This document shows, one piece after another, positions 2,818-42,052 of a stretch of 64,000 nucleotides of DNA. The translations under genes and the position numbers were made by a program. Origin of the DNA: Lentisphaerae bacterium GWF2_50_93 (GTDB lineage Bacteria > Verrucomicrobiota > Lentisphaeria > Victivallales > GWF2-50-93); NCBI GenBank assembly GCA_001804815.1, contig MHBI01000075.1, forward strand, positions 1-64,000, given 5' to 3'. The first letter of the stretch is position 1; every line of letters begins with the position of its first letter. The notes beneath the pieces were generated by a model. The model worked only from the letters and a program-made list of their open reading frames with translations, did no database searches and was not told the DNA's origin.

Positions 2818-3979
2818 GACGCACCTTTGTTTTTTCAATTTCCTCAAGATATTTTATTCCTTCGAGAAGGATTTTTTCATCGAGTTCGTTGACTTCGGTC
2901 TTCCTGCCGAGGCCGTTTGGAAGAGTAATGTGGAGTTCACCTCCGAGGTGCTCCCGGAATTCCCTTATTCCCGAGAATATCCTATAGTTCCCATCCCTGT
3001 CTTTTTCCAGGAGATAATCGGACCACGGCTTAAGTCCAAGTATTTTCAGACATGAAAGCAGCCTTTCGAAATCCCCTTTGTAGAGGAGTCCTTTCTCAAC
3101 GGCATAGTATGAGTCCAGGGCAAGCCCGATGGCGACGGCCTCGCCGTGCCGTATCTTCCCGCCGCTCATCATCTCGAGCTTGTGCGCGGACCAGTGTCCG
3201 AAATCAAGCGGACGCGCGCTTCCGAATTCGAACGGATCCCCGCTTGTCTGTATATGCATCACGTGGAGTTCGGCGCAGCGCTTCACCAGTTTTTCCATGA
3301 CCGGCCTGTCACGCTTCTTGAGCTTTTCAGTATTCCTGCAGAGCCAGTCGAAGAACCGCCTGTCCTTGATCATCGAGACCTTCAACGCCTCGGCGACGCC
3401 GGAGACCCAGTCGCGCTGCTCCAGCGTGTCCAGGAAGTTGAAGTCATTTATAACAGCGAAAGGAGGTGCGAAGGTGCCGATGAAATTCTTGTAGCCGAAC
3501 ATGTTTATGCCGTTCTTGACGCCTACGCCGGAATCGTCCTGGGCAAGGACGGTCGTCGGCATGCGGATCTGCCTGATCCCGCGGTGCACTATTGAGGCGG
3601 CGAACCCGACGGTGTCAAGAAAGGCGCCTCCTCCGATGATGAATATGAATGACTGGCGGCACAGGTGCTTCTCACCCATGACGCGGCAGAGTTCTGATAT
3701 GATCTCAAAGGATTTCCAGTCTTCGCCGCCGAATTTGACTATCGGCTCGCAGACAAGTCTTATGGACTTGTCATGCGTCCTGCAGTATCCGAGGATGTCC
3801 GCCGGGATTGAAGGATGGAGTTTCAGGACCCCGTGTTCGATGGCGAAGAGCACATCATGCCTTCTCCTGCCCTCTTTGGAGGATACGACCTTCCCGAGCA
3901 GCGGATTATCCCGTGAGAAGACATCTCTGGTGAAATGCACCTTGTAGTCATACTCGACATTGATTTTAACAGGCAGCAT
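2810..3979 (-). CDS. EboD-like 3-dehydroquinate synthase family protein
   Basis: This 389-residue protein belongs to the dehydroquinate synthase / sugar-phosphate cyclase fold. Visible marks: an NAD-binding glycine patch FIIGGGAFLDTVGFAAS, the strand MPTTVLAQDDSGVGVKNG, the catalytic block SGVAEALKVSMIKD, and zinc-ligand segments DFGHWSAHKLEMM and KIRHGEAVAIG. These residues are intact, so it is probably active on a sugar-phosphate-like substrate. The insertions and the partnership with an eboE-like gene point to EboD rather than to AroB of the shikimate pathway; neither other aro genes nor shikimate genes lie nearby. It is the first gene of the minus-strand operon, with 100 nt to the divergent lipoprotein gene. 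AroB or another cyclase is the alternative. Confidence 0.75.
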   Translation of the reverse strand: MLPVKINVEYDYKVHFTRDVFSRDNPLLGKVVSSKEGRRRHDVLFAIEHGVLKLHPSIPADILGYCRTHDKSIRLVCEPIVKFGGEDWKSFEIISELCRVMGEKHLCRQSFIFIIGGGAFLDTVGFAASIVHRGIRQIRMPTTVLAQDDSGVGVKNGINMFGYKNFIGTFAPPFAVINDFNFLDTLEQRDWVSGVAEALKVSMIKDRRFFDWLCRNTEKLKKRDRPVMEKLVKRCAELHVMHIQTSGDPFEFGSARPLDFGHWSAHKLEMMSGGKIRHGEAVAIGLALDSYYAVEKGLLYKGDFERLLSCLKILGLKPWSDYLLEKDRDGNYRIFSGIREFREHLGGELHITLPNGLGRKTEVNELDEKILLEGIKYLEEIEKTKVRHV

Positions 3980-24480: not shown

Positions 24481-24646
24481 ATGTCGGGCTTTAAAGCCCG
24501 ACATGACGGCTGTCTGCTATACGCATTATTCTGGCTCCGTTTTGAATTCCTTATGATGAGTCTTACCCTTTATCGGGATAACCGCGAAGCGGTTCCCAAA
24601 GTTAAGAGTTATCTTGACTCAAATTAAAAAGGAGGATAAGACTCAT
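24481..24646 (-). repeat. Composite repeat: inverted module plus MITE-like element, copy 2
   Basis: 24481-24526 is an inverted ATGCGTATAG(T/C)AG-type module (TGTCTGCTATACGCAT), followed by GAATTCCTTATGATGAGTC, the inverse of part of copy A/D. 24556-24565 and 24637-24646 are perfect 10-bp inverted arms (ATGAGTCTTA/TAAGACTCAT) around the core shared with 7563-7672. AAGGAGG (24629-24635) and ATG (24645) lie at and inside the right arm. Confidence 0.75.
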
Positions 24647-28584: not shown

Positions 28585-29359
28585 TACTAGACAATGTTCG
28601 TTGTTTTTTCCATGCTTGGAACATTTAGCCTGATCAATTCATGCGCCTTGCGAGCGCATGGATTAATCACGTCGCATGAATAATCCAGGTTAGGACAGCC
28701 ACATCTTGCGACAGCAGTCAATATACACAGTCAAGAATGGTTTGACAACAGGCAAATCCAGAACGCGCATTTTGCTGGCCGGTTGCCTAAAAAAGCATGT
28801 CTGGCTTGTTCAGTTATTTTAATTAAGTCAAGCTGAGCTCAAAAACATCTGAATTTGCTCGTAGTAGTCCGCCGAGGCGGATTTGCGCGCTAAGTAAGTA
28901 GGTACGTGCTTCAGCATGTACCATCTTAATCTAAGAATGGGACAGGCTAAAGCCCTGTCTACTATACGCATATTCCAGTACTGTCCACGTCATGTTCTCC
29001 GGTTCTTCTGTCTTTGCATCTTTACGTCAGGCGCTTCGGCCTGACTTTGGACTGCGGTGATTATTCACCGCTTTGTTTTTAGAGCTGTTCGTCACGCCAT
29101 AGCATCTTAACAAAAGCGAAAGCTGTTATCTTCTCCACGGTTCCAGCGGAATCCAAAGCGCAGAATGATCTGCGCACCAAAGATTCGTCCTCCGTCTGGA
29201 GGACTCATCATAAAGAATTCTAAACAGAGCAAAAATATGCGTATAGTAGTCAGGGCTGAAGCCCGTCCCTACTTTACTTTAAGCACGCGCAAACATGCGC
29301 TACTACCAAACGAAATACACCAGCAATTAAGCTTATTTAGTATTTCGCAGCTCGATTGT
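28585..29359. other. Repeat-rich intergenic stretch (about 775 bp)
   Basis: No gene is seen. Contents: degenerate 28-nt-type hairpin near 28701-28724; GTAGTAG-TCCGCC-ga-GGCGGA module at 28861-28883; GTAGGTACG hairpin at 28898-28922; inverted ATGCGTATAGTAG module at 28941-28971; GTCAGGC hairpin at 29026-29045; a CGGTGA-ttat-TCACCG stem with T-rich tail at 29056-29080; the long repeat copy D from 29084; and a GTAGTAG hairpin on the minus strand at 29283-29307. Confidence 0.75.
29084..29276 (+). repeat. Dispersed intergenic repeat, copy D
   Basis: Almost base for base the same as 1-195, both ending in the ATGCGTATAGTAG hairpin module and GCCCGTCCCTAC. After this point the two copies diverge into different REP-like modules. 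No conserved coding frame. Confidence 0.88.
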
Positions 29360-35250: not shown

Positions 35251-35495
35251 ACCCTCCGCAGACGCAGGGGACGAACAATGTCGCCTGTCTCCAGGCCGGC
35301 TATTTTAAGCCGATCTGGAGGTTTGCCCGTCTTTGGCGGCGCCATAGACGGCCAGGATCGGCGTTCCTTGGCAGTTTTGAAATTACATCGCATATCTTTC
35401 AGAATCAGCCTCAAAGAAATACAAGCTGAATATCCGCCGGATCTATAGAAGTTGATGTGTGTTTCCTGTCCCAGCCTGGACAGGATGAGAATAGG

Positions 35496-35527
35496 CAGGG
35501 GCTTCAGCCCCTGTCTACTATACGCAT
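35496..35527 (-). repeat. ATGCGTATAGTAG hairpin module, copy E
   Basis: On the minus strand: ATGCGTATAGTAGACAGGGG then CTGAAGCCCCTG, an 8-bp stem. Copies of this module are also at 156-191, 24481-24526, 28941-28971, 29237-29272 and 35953-35985. Confidence 0.78.
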
Positions 35528-35712
35528 ATTTTGTTAAAGTATGCCGGTTTCGCCGAAACCGGCACGAGGCTCTTTCGGCGAAAGAGCCATACTTAATTGC
35601 GTAAATGAGACTGACATACCCAGCTTAACGCTTACTTAAATATCAATAAATATACGATCTATGCTGTACCGCCAGCCTGCGGGGGCTGGAAAATTTATTT
35701 AATCAATTATCA

Positions 35713-35846
35713 TCCCCACGCTTACGCATGGGGCTATAATATTACACCCTCTGCGAGGGTTGAATATAAAAAGGAAGTTCGCTTCATTTTATAATAGCCT
35801 CCGCAGGAGGTGTAATCCTGTAGCCCAAAGGCGTAAGCCTTGGGGA
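35713..35846. repeat. Large imperfect inverted repeat (40-bp arms)
   Basis: The arms 35713-35752 and 35807-35846 are complementary over most of their length (TCCCCAC-GCTTACGC / GCGTAAGCCTTGGGGA, then GGCTATAATATTACACC / GGTGTAATCCTGTAGCCC). Inside are smaller hairpins (CCCTCTGCGAGGG and GCCTCCGCAGGAGG). The central 54 nt are AT-rich. It looks like a MITE or a structured RNA. Confidence 0.7.
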
Positions 35847-36295
35847 TATGGATTATATAAAAAGACAAAAGCCCCCGCAGGACGGCGACACTTAAAGTTG
35901 AGGCATTCAGGTCGAAACATTTTTTACATAAAGACTTATGCAATGTCTAAATATGCGTATAGTAGACAGGGCTTCAGCCCCTGTTTATTGCCGTAGTTGT
36001 GTTCGCGTGCCATAGGTACGCGATGTCAATGTCCGGGTTTATGGTTTTCATGGCGTACATTGGCACCGCCTTTTCTATGGCAAGCCTGCTTGTCGGACAT
36101 ACGAGCAGCATGCTCCTCTGAACATGGCCGAAGCACCTGACGTAGAAACACAATACCCAGACCCCCTGATTCATGTCCGCAAACTACTCCTTACATGAAA
36201 ATTTTCCGACATATTTCGCAATGCGTTTGGAATCCACACCACATAACACTAGCTTAAGTGCTCTTAACAAATCTGAAATATCACATGGGGGCGGA

Positions 36296-37432
36296 ATGAC
36301 TGACAGGGAAGCGTATATAATCCTCAACATAATAAGCGGCATAGGACCGGCCAGGGTGAAATCGCTCTGCGAGCATTTCGGTTCTGTCTCCAATATCCTT
36401 GGAGCGCCTAAAAAGGAATTGCTGGCCGTCAACGGCATCGGGGAGACTCTGGCAGAGGCAGTTGTCAGCTGGAGGACGGACACCGACTACGAGTCAGAAA
36501 TGAAGCTCGCTGAAAGGGCCGGCGTTGAGATAGTCACACTGGCCGACGACAAGTATCCCTCTATTCTAAAGGAAGTCCATGACGCCCCCCTGTGCATATA
36601 TTCCAGGGGCAGGTTTCCTTCCGACGGTGAATTCATGCTCGGCGTGGTCGGCTCCAGGAGAATAACAAATTACGGCAAGGCGATGGCGGAGCATCTTTCC
36701 CGTTCGGCGGTTTACGCCGGCTGGACCGTTGTCTCCGGGCTTGCCTACGGGACAGACGCCGTCGCGCACAAGACCGTCGTCGATGCCGGTGGAAGGACGA
36801 TCGCAGTGCTTGGCGGAGGGCTGGCTAGGATATTCCCGCAGGACCATATTCCTCTCGCGAAGAGCATCATTGAAGGCGGAGGAGCCGTCATCAGCGAGTT
36901 TCCGATGGAGTTCGCACCCAACAGGCGCTCGTTCCCGATGCGGAACCGGATCATCTCCGGTCTTTCAAAAGGCGTGCTGGTCATTGAGGCCGGCAGCAGC
37001 AGCGGCGCGCTGATCACTGCGAAATTCGCACTTGAGCAGAACAGGTTGATTTTTTCAGTGCCAGGAGAAGCATCTAATCCGCAAGCAAGAGGTTGCAATG
37101 CCCTGATCAAACAGGGTGCAAAACTGACGGAGAACTTCGAGGACATCATGGAAGAATTCGAATTCCTTCCTGAATTCTCACCACCTCGCAATCTTAAAGT
37201 CATTGATGGCGATGGTGTTAAAGACGAAAGCGACTTCGCAGCCTTGAAACTTGATGAAGATGAATGCAGAATAATCGGCCTTTTGAAAAACGGAGATGCA
37301 AGCGCCGATTCTCTTGCGGGAGAAACAGGAATCAGCACTGGAAAACTACTCTCGCTCCTGATGAAGATGGAAATGAAGAAGCTCATTACCCAGTTACCTG
37401 GGAAAAGGTTTTCTCTAAGGAGCAACAAATAG
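36296..37432 (+). CDS. dprA: DNA processing protein DprA
   Basis: The product of about 378 residues has an N-terminal helix-hairpin-helix (ISGIGPARVKSLCEHFGSVS, VNGIGETLAEAV), the Rossmann DprA core (LGVVGSRRITNYGKAMAEHL, WTVVSGLAYGTDAVAHKTVV, GGRTIAVLGGGLARIFPQDH, GAVISEFPMEFAPNRRSFPM, NRIISGLSKGVLVIEAGSSS) and a C-terminal winged helix (IIGLLKNGDASADSLAGETG). It loads RecA on incoming single-stranded DNA in natural transformation. The start MTDREAYII at 36296 fits the family; an upstream in-frame extension is not DprA-like. Its 3' quarter (from 37061) is duplicated, more GC-rich, at 39062-39424. The AT-leaning 3' end may come from an insertion, as the text in the findings explains. Confidence 0.95.
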   Translation: MTDREAYIILNIISGIGPARVKSLCEHFGSVSNILGAPKKELLAVNGIGETLAEAVVSWRTDTDYESEMKLAERAGVEIVTLADDKYPSILKEVHDAPLCIYSRGRFPSDGEFMLGVVGSRRITNYGKAMAEHLSRSAVYAGWTVVSGLAYGTDAVAHKTVVDAGGRTIAVLGGGLARIFPQDHIPLAKSIIEGGGAVISEFPMEFAPNRRSFPMRNRIISGLSKGVLVIEAGSSSGALITAKFALEQNRLIFSVPGEASNPQARGCNALIKQGAKLTENFEDIMEEFEFLPEFSPPRNLKVIDGDGVKDESDFAALKLDEDECRIIGLLKNGDASADSLAGETGISTGKLLSLLMKMEMKKLITQLPGKRFSLRSNK

Positions 37433-37505
37433 CTCTGTGCCAAACAGGGCATACTCAATCATTTCCGCCAATTATCTATTTGCTAATGCTCAAAGATTAT
37501 TTATC

Positions 37506-37817
37506 CTATGGAGCGCTATTAGAAACATCTGTTTTGTTATGATTTTCATCTAATTTCTGCTCAATGCTTTTCAATTTTTGCATCAAACGCAAATGTTCAA
37601 GCATGTTTTGCTTTCTGTAGATAACCACTAAGCACATTATACCGACACCGACACTACAAATAAAAAGAAGCAAAGAATAGGCCAATTCATCACGAAGGCG
37701 ATAGGTATAATATAAAAAGAAACATGTTAATGCGGCCAACGCAATGGAATATATCAAATATTTCGCCTTGTATTTCCTACAGTATTCTTCCGTTAAAATG
37801 TATTCGTTCTTATCCAT
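37506..37817 (-). CDS. Small membrane protein of unknown function
   Basis: About 103 residues with two transmembrane segments (LIYSIALAALTCFFLYYTY and YSLLLFICSVGVGIMCLVVI) and a polar C-terminal tail (MLEHLRLMQKLKSIEQKLDE) that could form a short coiled coil. No family is recognised. The start at 37817 has AAGGA about 9 nt upstream. Base composition is clearly AT-rich compared with dprA and topA, and the gene lies on the opposite strand inside the segment bracketed by the dprA 3' duplication, so foreign origin is likely. Its direction and closeness to the YD-repeat gene (70 nt) suggest one operon. Confidence 0.72.
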   Translation of the reverse strand: MDKNEYILTEEYCRKYKAKYLIYSIALAALTCFFLYYTYRLRDELAYSLLLFICSVGVGIMCLVVIYRKQNMLEHLRLMQKLKSIEQKLDENHNKTDVSNSAP

Positions 37818-37905
37818 AAAACATATTCCTTTCATTAAAGTTCACCCATCATCGAACTGAGGAATAGCGTTCGTGTGAACGTAATTCGTTCTGCTTATAT
37901 TTTCC

Positions 37906-38811
37906 TTAATAGTACGTATAAGATGAAATGGTAATTTTAATCAACGTTGCTTTCTCATCATATGCTGCATCTTCAATCCGATTGCCCTCTTCATCGTATT
38001 TATATAAATATTTGCCCTTTAACGTCCCATCTGCGTTATACTGGACATACTCAGTCAAATTGCGCTTGTCATCATACTTGGATACTGCCTTACTCCATAA
38101 AGTTCCATCCGCTTCATATAATTCCTCATCTTTCTCGTTTCGCTTGTCATCATATCTTGAAATATATCTGAATTCAAAAGCTCCACCTGCCTTATATCTT
38201 GTTTTCTCAATCTCCCTCCCTTTGTCATCATACTTCGATATGGTTTTACGGTCGTAAACACCTTTGCTATTGAACATTTCCGTTTCAATCAAATTTCCAC
38301 TGGGGTCAAATTTAGAAACACTCCTACTGGATAAAACACTTTTACCATTAAAGACTTCAACTTCAACTATATTGCCATTGTCATCAGACTTAAATAAACA
38401 TTTATCGAGCAAATCTCCTGTTGCATCATATCTTTTCCTCTCACTCAAGGTTCCCTTGTCATCACGCTTAGAAACAAACTTTTCGGTCAAATCTCCATCT
38501 CCATTATAGTTTGTTTCCTCAACAGCATTGCCTTTGTCATCATACTTATAGATTACCATTTCGCTTAACACCCCATCTGCATTATACCGCACATACTGAA
38601 TATTATTACCTTTGTCATCGTATTTGTAGATAGATTTATCTATTATTTCCCTGGATTCCTTGCCAGACTTATTCGCAACTGAATAAAGAGTTGAGATACC
38701 TGTTTTGACCTTGCCTTTTAATCCGTATCGTTCCCATGCTGTCTTCTTGGATGCAGAGAACAAATTGGAAACCAACAGGAATGACAACATACAAATTAAC
38801 AAGTTTTTCAT
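37906..38811 (-). CDS. Secreted YD/RHS-like repeat protein
   Basis: The 301-residue product has a signal peptide (LLICMLSFLLVSNLFSASKK) and then nine tandem units of about 25 residues, each opening with (K/R)(Y/R/S/F)DDKGN-type turns (KYDDKGNNIQYVRYNADG, KYDDKGNAVEETNYNGDG, KSDDNGNIVEVEVFN, KYDDKRNLTEYVQYNADG). This is the pattern of the YD/RHS repeats that form beta shells or solenoids in secreted proteins; no toxin domain follows. The protein is AT-rich in codon choice compared with its neighbours. It lies in the segment bracketed by the dprA 3' duplication and is probably foreign. Function is unknown; a surface or periplasmic binding role is inference. Confidence 0.78.
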   Translation of the reverse strand: MKNLLICMLSFLLVSNLFSASKKTAWERYGLKGKVKTGISTLYSVANKSGKESREIIDKSIYKYDDKGNNIQYVRYNADGVLSEMVIYKYDDKGNAVEETNYNGDGDLTEKFVSKRDDKGTLSERKRYDATGDLLDKCLFKSDDNGNIVEVEVFNGKSVLSSRSVSKFDPSGNLIETEMFNSKGVYDRKTISKYDDKGREIEKTRYKAGGAFEFRYISRYDDKRNEKDEELYEADGTLWSKAVSKYDDKRNLTEYVQYNADGTLKGKYLYKYDEEGNRIEDAAYDEKATLIKITISSYTYY

Positions 38812-39061
38812 TTTTTATCCTTATGCATAGAAATTTTTATCATCTTTTCCTGATAAGCTGGTCAGAACAGAGTGCTGAAGATTTCTTGGCGCCCCTTCCC
38901 CCTTCAACTTTCAATAAAATTACAGTCCCAATGCAGGAAAGACAAGTATTAACAGGTTCACATCTATGGTAATATTCTTGAATTAGCCTCATACGGTTAT
39001 AGTTTATGATTATTGAAAAGGAGAGGAAAAGATATAAGCCTGAGGATTTTTAGCAGGCTCT

Positions 39062-39424
39062 GGCCAGGCCGACAATCCACAGGCTCGCGGCTGCAACGCA
39101 CTTATAAAGCAGGGTGCGAAACTGACGGAGAACTTCGAGGATATAATGGAGGAATTCGAATTCCTTCCCGAACTCGCGCCGGCGCATAATCTTAAAGTCA
39201 TTGATGGACATGGTGTTAAAGATGAAAGCGACTTGGCGGCCTTGAAACTTGATGAAGATGAATGCAGAATAATCGGCCTTTTGAAAAACGGAGATGCAAG
39301 CGCCGATTCCCTGTCCGCCGAGGCCGGGATTGGCACAGGAAAACTTCTCTCCCTTTTAATGAAAATGGAAATGAAAAAACTTATTTCGCAGCTGCCAGGA
39401 AAAAGATTTTCATTACGGAAATAA
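39062..39424 (+). pseudogene. dprA: Second partial copy of the dprA 3' end
   Basis: In frame, the sequence encodes DNPQARGCNALIKQGAKLTE and continues through LKLDEDECRIIGLLKNGDAS to LPGKRFSLRK, aligned with residues from about 256 of the intact DprA (37061-37432). About 60-70 nt (near 39237-39305) are identical and the rest is about 80-85% similar. There is a stop at 39041-39043 and no Rossmann core, so it cannot act alone. It directly precedes topA, which suggests that this copy is the original dprA 3' end and that the AT-richer upstream copy arrived with the insert. Confidence 0.88.
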
Positions 39425-39484: not shown

Positions 39485-42052
39485 ATGTCTGAAGGAAAAA
39501 AAGTCGTCATAGTCGAGTCACCTGCAAAGGCGCGTACCATAAGCAGGATACTTGGACCGGAATATTATGTAACCGCATCCATGGGGCATGTCAGGGATCT
39601 TCCTGAGCGCACTCTTGGCGTAGACATAAAGAACGGATTCATTCCAATCTACCAGGAAACCAAGAAGAAGGTGATACAGGAACTCAAGGCGGCGGCAAAG
39701 GGAGCAAGCCACATCTACCTGGCATCCGATCCTGATCGCGAAGGGGAGGCCATCGCCTGGCATGTGAAGGAAGCACTGCAGAAGTCCACCAAGGCCGCAT
39801 TCAGCCGGGTCGTATTCCATGAAATCACAAAGAGCGCCGTCAACAACGCCTTCCAGCATCCTGCCGACATCAACATGGACGTAGTCGATTCACAGCAGGC
39901 GAGAAGGATCCTCGACAGGCTCGTAGGCTACAAGGTCAGCGAGATACTGTGGTCCAAGATCGAACGCGGCATAAGCGCGGGAAGAGTGCAGTCCGTGGCC
40001 CTGAGGATCGTCTGCGAGAAGGAACGCGAGGTGCTTGCATTCCAGCCGCAGGAATACTGGAACCTGTCGGTGAACCTTGAAGTGGAGCCGCAGGGAAGCG
40101 GCAAGAAATACCAGGCCAGGCTTTTCCAGATCGACGGGAAGAAGGCCGACATAAAGACTGGAGAGGAATCAAACAAGGCGCTTGAATCGATCCGCGGCGG
40201 ACACGACTTGAAGATCGCCAACAACGAGATCAAGCCGAAGAAAAGGTACGCCCCTCCACCATTCATCACAAGCACGCTTCAGCAGGCCGCGGGACCCGCG
40301 CTGAGGTTTTCCGCCAGCCATACGATGCGCGTCGCACAGGGACTGTATGAAGGTGTTGATCTTGGTTCTTCGGGTCCGGCAGGTCTCATCACTTATATGA
40401 GAACCGACTCCTTCACCATTGCAAAGGAGGCGCAGGAAGCATGCCGCGCCTACATTACGTCCAGCATAGGGGCCGAATATCTCCCGGACACTCCCAACTT
40501 CTATAAGAATGCGGGCCGTGCACAGGAAGCGCATGAGGCAATACGTCCTACCGACGTGAACCGCACGCCCAAGGATCTCGAACCGTTCCTTTCACCCGAC
40601 CAGCTGAAGCTCTATACGCTGATATGGAAACGTTTCGTCGCAAGCCAGATGAGACCCGCCGAACAGAAGCTCACGACAGTCGATACCGCAGTGGCCGGCG
40701 CAGACAGCAGGATCTTCACATTCCGCACGACCGCGACGGAGACGGTCTTCCAGGGCTTCCTGAAGATCTACGACTTCCTCGACAGGGACAAAGACGACAA
40801 GACGGCGGACGACGCGGACGAGGATGAATTCATGCCGACAGCATCGCTCTCTGAGCTCGTAAAGGACCAGAAGGTGCTCCTGCTTGATGCGAAATCCGAC
40901 CAGAAGTTCACCGAACCACCGCCGAGATACTCCGAATCAATGCTGATAAAGGCGCTTGAAGCTAACGGCATCGGAAGGCCTTCCACGTATGCTACAATAG
41001 TGAACACCATCCAGCAGAGGAAATACGTAGACAAGCTGAAGGGCAAGCTGATTCCGACGGAACTCGGCTTCAAGGTCAACGACTTCCTCGTCGCCAACCT
41101 GGGGGATCTCTTCCAGATAGGCTTCACGGCGGAAATGGAATTGAAGCTCGACAAGATCGAGGAAGGCGAAGTCCAGTGGCAGAAGATGCTCGAGGAGTTC
41201 TACGGGAGCTTCTCCGGCTGGGTCGGCGAGGCGAAGACGATCGGCGCACCGGAAAAGGACAAGGCCGAAAAAATAGTGCACCTGTTCGACGGCGTGCAGA
41301 CCTGGAAGGCGCCCGAAAAGAAGGGGCGCAGGACATACGACGACAAGAAATTTGCCGAATCGGTCAAATCGCAGTTCGACAAGAACGGCGGAATATCCGA
41401 GAGGCAATGGTCGGCGCTCATCAGGATGTCGGCGCAGTACAAGGACCAGATACCTGATCTGGACTCCAAACTTTCAGAACTGGGCGCAAGCCAGCCCGCA
41501 GAAGGCGCCGCTGCCGGCGGAAGCATCGGTCCTGACGGGCAGCCGGTTCCTCCCGAGGACATGGGCAAGTACAAGGAAGTGATGGAGCTCCTGGCGGCAG
41601 TGAAACCGGACGAGCCCGGAGCTGGAAGGGGCGGCAGGAAGTTTGATGACAAGAAATTCATCCTATCCATAAAATCACAGGTCGACGGCGGCAGGAACCT
41701 TTCTCCGAAACAAATCAACGCCGTCAAAAAACTGACGGCCAAATACAAGGACCAGATACCTAATTTCGAAGACATTTCAGTGAAGCTTTCGCTGAATGAA
41801 CCCGCTGCGGGCGCCGACGGCAAGACAGAGGCGCCAAGCAACGTAAACGTTGAGGAAATCCAGAAGATACTGACATCGCTTTCCACGGTAACAGCTTGGG
41901 AACAGCCTGTCAAAAAAGGGTTCCGCACGTTCAACGACAAATCGTTCTTCCAATCGCTGGAAAAACAGTTCAATGCGAAGAGGAATCTATCGGCGAAACA
42001 GGTTGCCGCTCTGAACAAAATGGCTGGGAAATATATAAAAGAGCAGAATTAA
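39485..42052 (+). CDS. topA: DNA topoisomerase I with a repeat C-terminus
   Basis: The 855-residue product carries the type IA core: TOPRIM (VVIVESPAKARTISRIL, IYLASDPDREGEAIAWH), the cap and hinge (AFQPQEYWNLSVNLEV), and the active-site Tyr in GLITYMRTDS (residue about 304), with RPSTYATIVNTIQQRKYV further on. It relaxes negative supercoils. Instead of the usual C-terminal zinc ribbons (no CxxC pairs are seen after residue 600), it has three copies of a 50-residue module starting near 611, 712 and 809 with a (R/K)xF(D/N)DKxFxxS entry and (S/A)xKQ, then YKDQIP. Such modules are probably extra DNA-binding units. The start at 39485 is preceded by no perfect ribosome site. Confidence 0.95.
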   Translation: MSEGKKVVIVESPAKARTISRILGPEYYVTASMGHVRDLPERTLGVDIKNGFIPIYQETKKKVIQELKAAAKGASHIYLASDPDREGEAIAWHVKEALQKSTKAAFSRVVFHEITKSAVNNAFQHPADINMDVVDSQQARRILDRLVGYKVSEILWSKIERGISAGRVQSVALRIVCEKEREVLAFQPQEYWNLSVNLEVEPQGSGKKYQARLFQIDGKKADIKTGEESNKALESIRGGHDLKIANNEIKPKKRYAPPPFITSTLQQAAGPALRFSASHTMRVAQGLYEGVDLGSSGPAGLITYMRTDSFTIAKEAQEACRAYITSSIGAEYLPDTPNFYKNAGRAQEAHEAIRPTDVNRTPKDLEPFLSPDQLKLYTLIWKRFVASQMRPAEQKLTTVDTAVAGADSRIFTFRTTATETVFQGFLKIYDFLDRDKDDKTADDADEDEFMPTASLSELVKDQKVLLLDAKSDQKFTEPPPRYSESMLIKALEANGIGRPSTYATIVNTIQQRKYVDKLKGKLIPTELGFKVNDFLVANLGDLFQIGFTAEMELKLDKIEEGEVQWQKMLEEFYGSFSGWVGEAKTIGAPEKDKAEKIVHLFDGVQTWKAPEKKGRRTYDDKKFAESVKSQFDKNGGISERQWSALIRMSAQYKDQIPDLDSKLSELGASQPAEGAAAGGSIGPDGQPVPPEDMGKYKEVMELLAAVKPDEPGAGRGGRKFDDKKFILSIKSQVDGGRNLSPKQINAVKKLTAKYKDQIPNFEDISVKLSLNEPAAGADGKTEAPSNVNVEEIQKILTSLSTVTAWEQPVKKGFRTFNDKSFFQSLEKQFNAKRNLSAKQVAALNKMAGKYIKEQN

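Follow-up and report, generated by a model that had tools for sequence, protein, structure and literature searches.

A probable recombination scar at dprA in Lentisphaerae bacterium GWF2_50_93: an intact gene, two AT-rich genes and an orphaned second dprA 3' end

In the genome of Lentisphaerae bacterium GWF2_50_93 an intact dprA is separated from topA by two AT-rich genes and a second dprA 3' end; this arrangement was probably produced by RecA-type recombination of foreign DNA, bearing a dprA 3' end and the two cargo genes, into the resident dprA. The locus is best read as a recombination scar of a known kind, and neither a new element nor a link between cargo and competence was shown. Foreign genes could in this way be accommodated inside a conserved operon while the gene that is cut is kept, the missing end being supplied by the incoming DNA. 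The genome is a 6.4-Mb draft in 120 contigs, and the window (the whole 64,000-nucleotide stretch of DNA that was analysed) lies on a 123-kb contig, C75. It was compared with genus-mates that are MAGs (labelled G001, G002 and G003; GWF2_49_21 is among them) and with a wider set of 137 genomes of the order Victivallales.

The product of the intact dprA was matched in a Pfam search by the DprA domain PF02481 (DNA_processg_A; E 4e-71, whole protein) and the DprA winged helix PF17782 (E 2.6e-08). Positions 37076-37421 and 39074-39419 form a direct repeat of 82.4% identity over 346 nt (84% over 300 nt in a second alignment), and the homologous segment is thereby present on both sides of the inserted DNA (Table 1). 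The two copies of the dprA 3' end have 70 differences in 361 nt; their longest identical run is 71 nt, a length reached in 0 of 20,000 random placements of an equal number of differences. A preliminary description of this DNA had reported a dprA 3' repeat of about 80–85% similarity with 60–70 identical bases, and two minus-strand genes between the copies; both observations were borne out, the genes encoding 109 aa and 301 aa, the latter with nine YD units. The downstream copy comprises 121 codons with no start codon at its head and no internal stop, and ends 60 nt before topA. The sequence GATTTTT at the right junction (39045-39051) recurs at the left boundary (37048-37054) and is a possible 7-nt microhomology; had the joint formed at GATTTTT, however, the reading frame of the downstream copy would not match that of the native gene. 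No recipient DNA was visibly missing at the joint, a segment having been duplicated instead.

Table 1. Coordinates of features at the dprA-topA locus (positions in the window).
Feature	Position	Strand	Remark
dprA, intact, 378 aa	36296-37432	+	all domains present
dprA 5' two thirds, codons 1-255	36296-37060	+	GC3 0.69 over codons 1-250
upstream copy of dprA 3' end, forms the end of the intact gene	37046-37432	+	synonymously diverged at codons 349-375; AT3-rich codons 251-268
109-aa ORF	37506-37835	-	cargo gene 1
301-aa YD-repeat ORF	37906-38811	-	cargo gene 2
non-coding right end of insert, upstream region of YD gene	38812-39044	no strand	
right junction	39045-39061	no strand	read directly from sequence
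downstream, orphaned copy of dprA 3' end, codons ~255-376	39056-39424	+	in-frame stop immediately upstream
identical core, upstream copy / downstream copy	37241-37311 / 39239-39309	+	71 nt
topA	39485-42052	+	native downstream neighbour of dprA in genus and many other phylum members

Comparison with relatives supports an insertion specific to this genome or lineage. In the two genus-mates with an assembled junction (G001 and G003) a gap of ~60-80 nt separates dprA from topA, without insert, in agreement with the earlier reading of an insertion into dprA. The adjacency of dprA and topA is widespread in the phylum and reaches Kiritimatiellales-type relatives. A second dprA 3' end was found in 1 of the 137 genomes of the order, namely GWF2_50_93; a search of the set for dprA 3' duplications with different cargo, as had been proposed, gave no further case. 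The longest dprA-topA gap among relatives (locus L066) holds a lipoprotein-like gene and no dprA duplication. Contig C379 of G002 ends (position 3543) at dprA codon 258, a few codons from where the orphaned copy starts in GWF2_50_93; it was considered as a second insertion at dprA and rejected, because that assembly simply lacks the remainder of dprA together with topA's first half.

Of 119 codons, 42 differ synonymously and 13 non-synonymously between the two copies (dN 0.056, dS 1.76); between species, dS in dprA codons 1-250 was 1.35-2.1 where not saturated. The dN to G003 was 0.115 for the downstream and 0.110 for the upstream copy, and the orphaned downstream copy contains neither stops nor frameshifts. 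Because synonymous sites are saturated (species level) while the protein is conserved, neither copy would be an old decaying duplicate, and because protein conservation in the downstream copy equals that in the upstream one, it would recently have been a working gene end. As judged from these values, both copies were still working gene ends during their divergence, and the orphaning of one is recent. Such divergence is the prediction for an imported dprA 3' end, not for an old in-place duplicate, and supports the view that the present end of the intact dprA differs from the native end at species level. An in-place duplication of the resident 3' end, in which the cargo came with the duplicate or after it and the later divergence of the copies was accompanied by partial gene conversion, was given a low probability. 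It would fit residues that both copies share and relatives lack (e.g. GVKDESD and C324) and the identity of the copies over codons 316-338, and the synonymous change at the 3' end of the upstream copy could reflect release from a topA-linked constraint; yet the downstream copy, at species-level synonymous divergence, shows none of the decay that a duplicate of that age should have undergone (no stops, dN to G003 like that of the functional copy), and conversion would have to be confined to the middle.

With regard to which end was imported, the downstream copy agrees with G003 and G001 at 23/27 and 22/27 codons, respectively, over codons 349-375, and the upstream copy at 12/27 and 12/27, which identifies the native topA-side end as that of the downstream copy. 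Over codons 339-348 it is the upstream copy that matches G003 better (6/10 vs 0/10 for the downstream copy). Over codons 257-298 neither copy is clearly native; affinities by segment are mixed. In the fast-evolving linker (codons 299-315) the copies share residues absent from both G003 and G001. Along the repeat, identity climbs from 0.60 (left boundary) to 1.0 (codons 316-338) and then drops to 0.70 at the end, and a crossover or conversion tract in mid-repeat, between two diverged sequences, likely accounts for the identical core; its 71 nt are above the RecA threshold of ~30 bp quoted in PMC2884548.

In the proposed mechanism, the foreign fragment would have consisted of the dprA 3' end, from codon ~252 as far as the stop, of a species at roughly genus-level distance, together with the two AT-rich cargo genes, and would have recombined through the shared dprA sequence. 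The most likely route would be a single crossover of the circularised fragment; one-sided homology-facilitated illegitimate recombination (HFIR) is the alternative. Since the incoming DNA would have begun in dprA, the resident 5' part would have been joined to the imported 3' end and dprA would have stayed whole. The displaced native 3' end would have been left in front of topA, where it may survive because it contains sequence needed for topA expression. Donor, route (transformation or conjugation) and exact crossover are what we infer from this arrangement; no donor sequence was found in the searches. ComEC and DprA are both encoded in the genome, and GWF2_50_93 may possibly take up DNA. A single crossover is expected to leave native sequence on the outer side and donor sequence on the inner side of each copy; the outer side of the downstream copy looks native at codons 349-375, and codons 257-298 are without clear assignment. 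Against a crossover in the core stands the drop in GC3 at codon 251 of the upstream copy; the more natural explanation of this drop would be a clean site-specific insertion.

When linear DNA that is homologous at one end is ligated into a circle in E. coli, it integrates by a single crossover, and duplications of 109-950 bp bracket the insert (PMC3240628). By analogy, the geometry of the dprA locus is that of such a single-crossover (Campbell-type) insertion, with foreign DNA inside a direct duplication (~370 bp at dprA); unlike the products of that experiment, it is a natural event and its copies are diverged (82%) outside the core, which implies a donor of another species. HFIR, with homology at one end and unrelated DNA at the other, is on record for Acinetobacter baylyi, Streptococcus pneumoniae and Pseudomonas stutzeri, and was proposed in Vibrio cholerae for incoming T6SS effector modules that push old genes and 3' ends downstream (PMC5361080). 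The dprA locus resembles HFIR in its one-sided homology; of the microhomology of 3–10 bp at the joint, GATTTTT is a possible but out-of-frame instance at dprA. True HFIR usually deletes recipient DNA (PMC3240628), whereas the dprA segment is duplicated; in addition, a housekeeping gene was the target, and the protein sequence of the imported end is almost unchanged. Displaced 3' ends have also been hypothesized for Rhs and contact-dependent inhibition loci (cited in PMC5361080). These loci share with dprA the strings of orphaned gene 3' ends, and the dprA cargo has YD-type repeats; they differ in that the duplicated end here is that of dprA rather than of the YD gene, and the YD protein is small.

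The preliminary description had read the locus as an insertion that brought its own dprA 3' end and so kept the gene whole, and as the work of an element that repairs its target. The first part is supported by the diverged end and the insert-free genus-mates; a dedicated element is not supported. The tyrosine recombinase family PF00589 had no match on the 123-kb contig (15 matches elsewhere in the genome), and the insert holds two genes only, with no recombinase gene in or next to it. Neither inverted or terminal repeats nor a known RNA family or tRNA gene was found at the junctions. An att core was sought and not seen: identity is lowest at the boundary, and the identical core lies ~180-250 nt inside. 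Searches of viral contigs, with full-length DprA and the downstream copy as queries, gave no relatives. No paper presenting dprA as an integration site was found in the literature; the one paper with both dprA and attB deals with prophages of pneumococci, which influence the level of DprA or have their integration sites at other competence genes. One element-like feature is present, namely a target gene kept intact through a diverged imported end. Integrative elements that restore the 3' end of their target gene are known from icd (e14 and phage 21); as at dprA, the target is kept whole by a nucleotide-diverged 3' end carried by the element, but the dprA case has no integrase, boundary core or recurrence, and its scar is not limited to one gene.

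An integrative element specific for dprA codon ~252, carrying its own recoded 3' end and since reduced to two cargo genes with loss of the integrase, is weighed here as a rival and regarded as rather improbable. In the upstream copy, codon usage shifts at codon 251, the point at which the downstream copy sets in; such a shift would be expected of an element of this kind, as would GATTTTT at both boundaries, and the end of the G002 contig and the tyrosine-recombinase matches elsewhere in the genome are compatible with the element. These points are offset by the missing recombinase on the contig, the junctions free of inverted repeats, the low identity at the boundary in place of a long identical core, and the out-of-frame downstream copy that a GATTTTT crossover would give; moreover, G002 merely lacks the region in question, no recurrence at dprA was seen in the 137 genomes, no viral contig carries dprA, and scars of the same shape occur at other genes.

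Base composition argues weakly for insertion. The insert (37433-39056) has 35.7% GC, compared with 56.6% for the dprA 5' part and 54.6% for topA; the segment is not even, and its AT-richness had been described correctly. The two cargo genes have 33-36% GC. Relatives of the YD gene are AT-rich as well (34.5-38.7% GC in eight relatives from five genomes of the family, within surroundings of 45-49% GC), and since this holds for all measured relatives, the AT-richness of the YD gene is by itself no sign of recent foreign arrival. GC-richer codons had further been claimed for the downstream copy and AT-richer ones for the upstream copy. This did not hold along the repeat: overall GC3 is 0.48 downstream and 0.44 upstream, the contrast is confined to codons 257-275 (upstream 0.32 vs downstream 0.63), and it is reversed at codons 351-376 (upstream 0.65 vs downstream 0.35). 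In the upstream copy GC3 falls to 4/18 at codons 251-268 (simulated P ~0.009 for an 18-codon stretch this low), and the start of this drop coincides with that of the downstream copy.

Similar scars were screened for in ~2.25 Mb (~35%) of the GWF2_50_93 genome, including the window. On contig C50 (12878-16152) two copies of the ruvC 5' end (226 nt, 91% identity) bracket a katG catalase-peroxidase gene; the repeat has an identical core of 84 nt (chance of a run this long, 0.0015) and an identity profile of 0.88 ... 1.0 ... 0.85, and no katG was found within 1.5 kb of ruvC in the genus-mates. This is a clear second scar of the dprA shape. On contig C92 (3778-8957) the 3' end of an XRE/M78-peptidase gene and the following gene are duplicated (84-89%), bracketing DUF3800 and PIN-domain genes, and the second copy of the following gene is internally deleted. 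This locus is likely a third scar, a weaker one, the region being toxin-antitoxin-like where local duplication is common. The tie of the dprA cargo to competence or DNA uptake that had been suggested is not supported; the same scar shape occurs at ruvC, and probably at the XRE/M78 gene, with unrelated cargo. Because unrelated cargo and unrelated target genes share one scar shape, general recombination is favoured, and the scars at other genes point to ordinary recombination rather than to a special mobile element.

The other loci also bear on the assembly. Two related populations might have been joined in metagenome assembly, given a fragmented draft (120 contigs) whose nearest relatives are MAGs; we consider this artefact very unlikely, since the junctions contain no N run, the right junction showed no shared stretch of a length that could cause a k-mer misjoin, and similar structures occur on other contigs. 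A wider reading, in which foreign DNA is repeatedly fused, by general and element-free capture in this lineage, to xenologous ends of conserved genes (dprA, ruvC and others), is put forward tentatively and at present seems unlikely. If it were true, the landing site would heal itself, selection against the insertion would be removed, and the scars, recognisable by an identical core between diverged flanks and by an orphaned gene end, could be counted in any genome. Independently of this reading, as the scar is readable and present more than once in this genome, the rate of capture would be measurable by a simple scan.

As to the cargo, the 109-aa protein has two predicted membrane helices (by eye), belongs to no family above cut-off and has no good relative in nine related genomes; a match to KwaA (E 4e-4) was set aside as a generic membrane-segment match. 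The 301-aa protein has a signal-peptide-like N-terminus and nine 26-aa YD / MORN_2-like units (both assessed by eye). It scored 17.5 bits against TIGR01643 (cut-off 15.8) and stayed below cut-off against Pfam RHS_repeat (17.7; cut-off 22) and MORN_2 (26.4; cut-off 29.6); no toxin domain was found above cut-off in the Pfam search. The YD gene has shuffled paralogues in the genus, all AT-rich. No match was obtained when the YD protein was searched against plasmids and phages, the insert DNA gave weak matches to YD-repeat regions and no others in the 137 genomes, and no relative of the insert was found together with dprA pieces. In another genome (G004), contig C55 (302-3100) encodes a fusion protein whose N-terminal part resembles a sigma factor and whose C-terminal part carries YD repeats, and behind this gene lies a partial duplicate of it with an internal deletion; contig C543 (5752-13586) encodes large tandem paralogues with YD blocks and formylglycine-generating / sulfatase-modifying-factor-like domains (by eye). 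Both were considered as dprA-like scars and rejected as paralogue shuffling.

Two further observations were made. The last ~60 dprA codons (39239-39421) are conserved at synonymous sites among the native copy, G003 and G001; over codons 349-375 dS among the three was 0.20-0.36, vs >1.3 in codons 1-250, which suggests a regulatory element for topA within the dprA 3' end. Elsewhere in the window, a non-coding-looking element of 220 nt at 1-220 is repeated at 29084-29304 with 92% identity, and shorter pieces of it, some inverted, lie at 24510, 28939 and 35490-35989.
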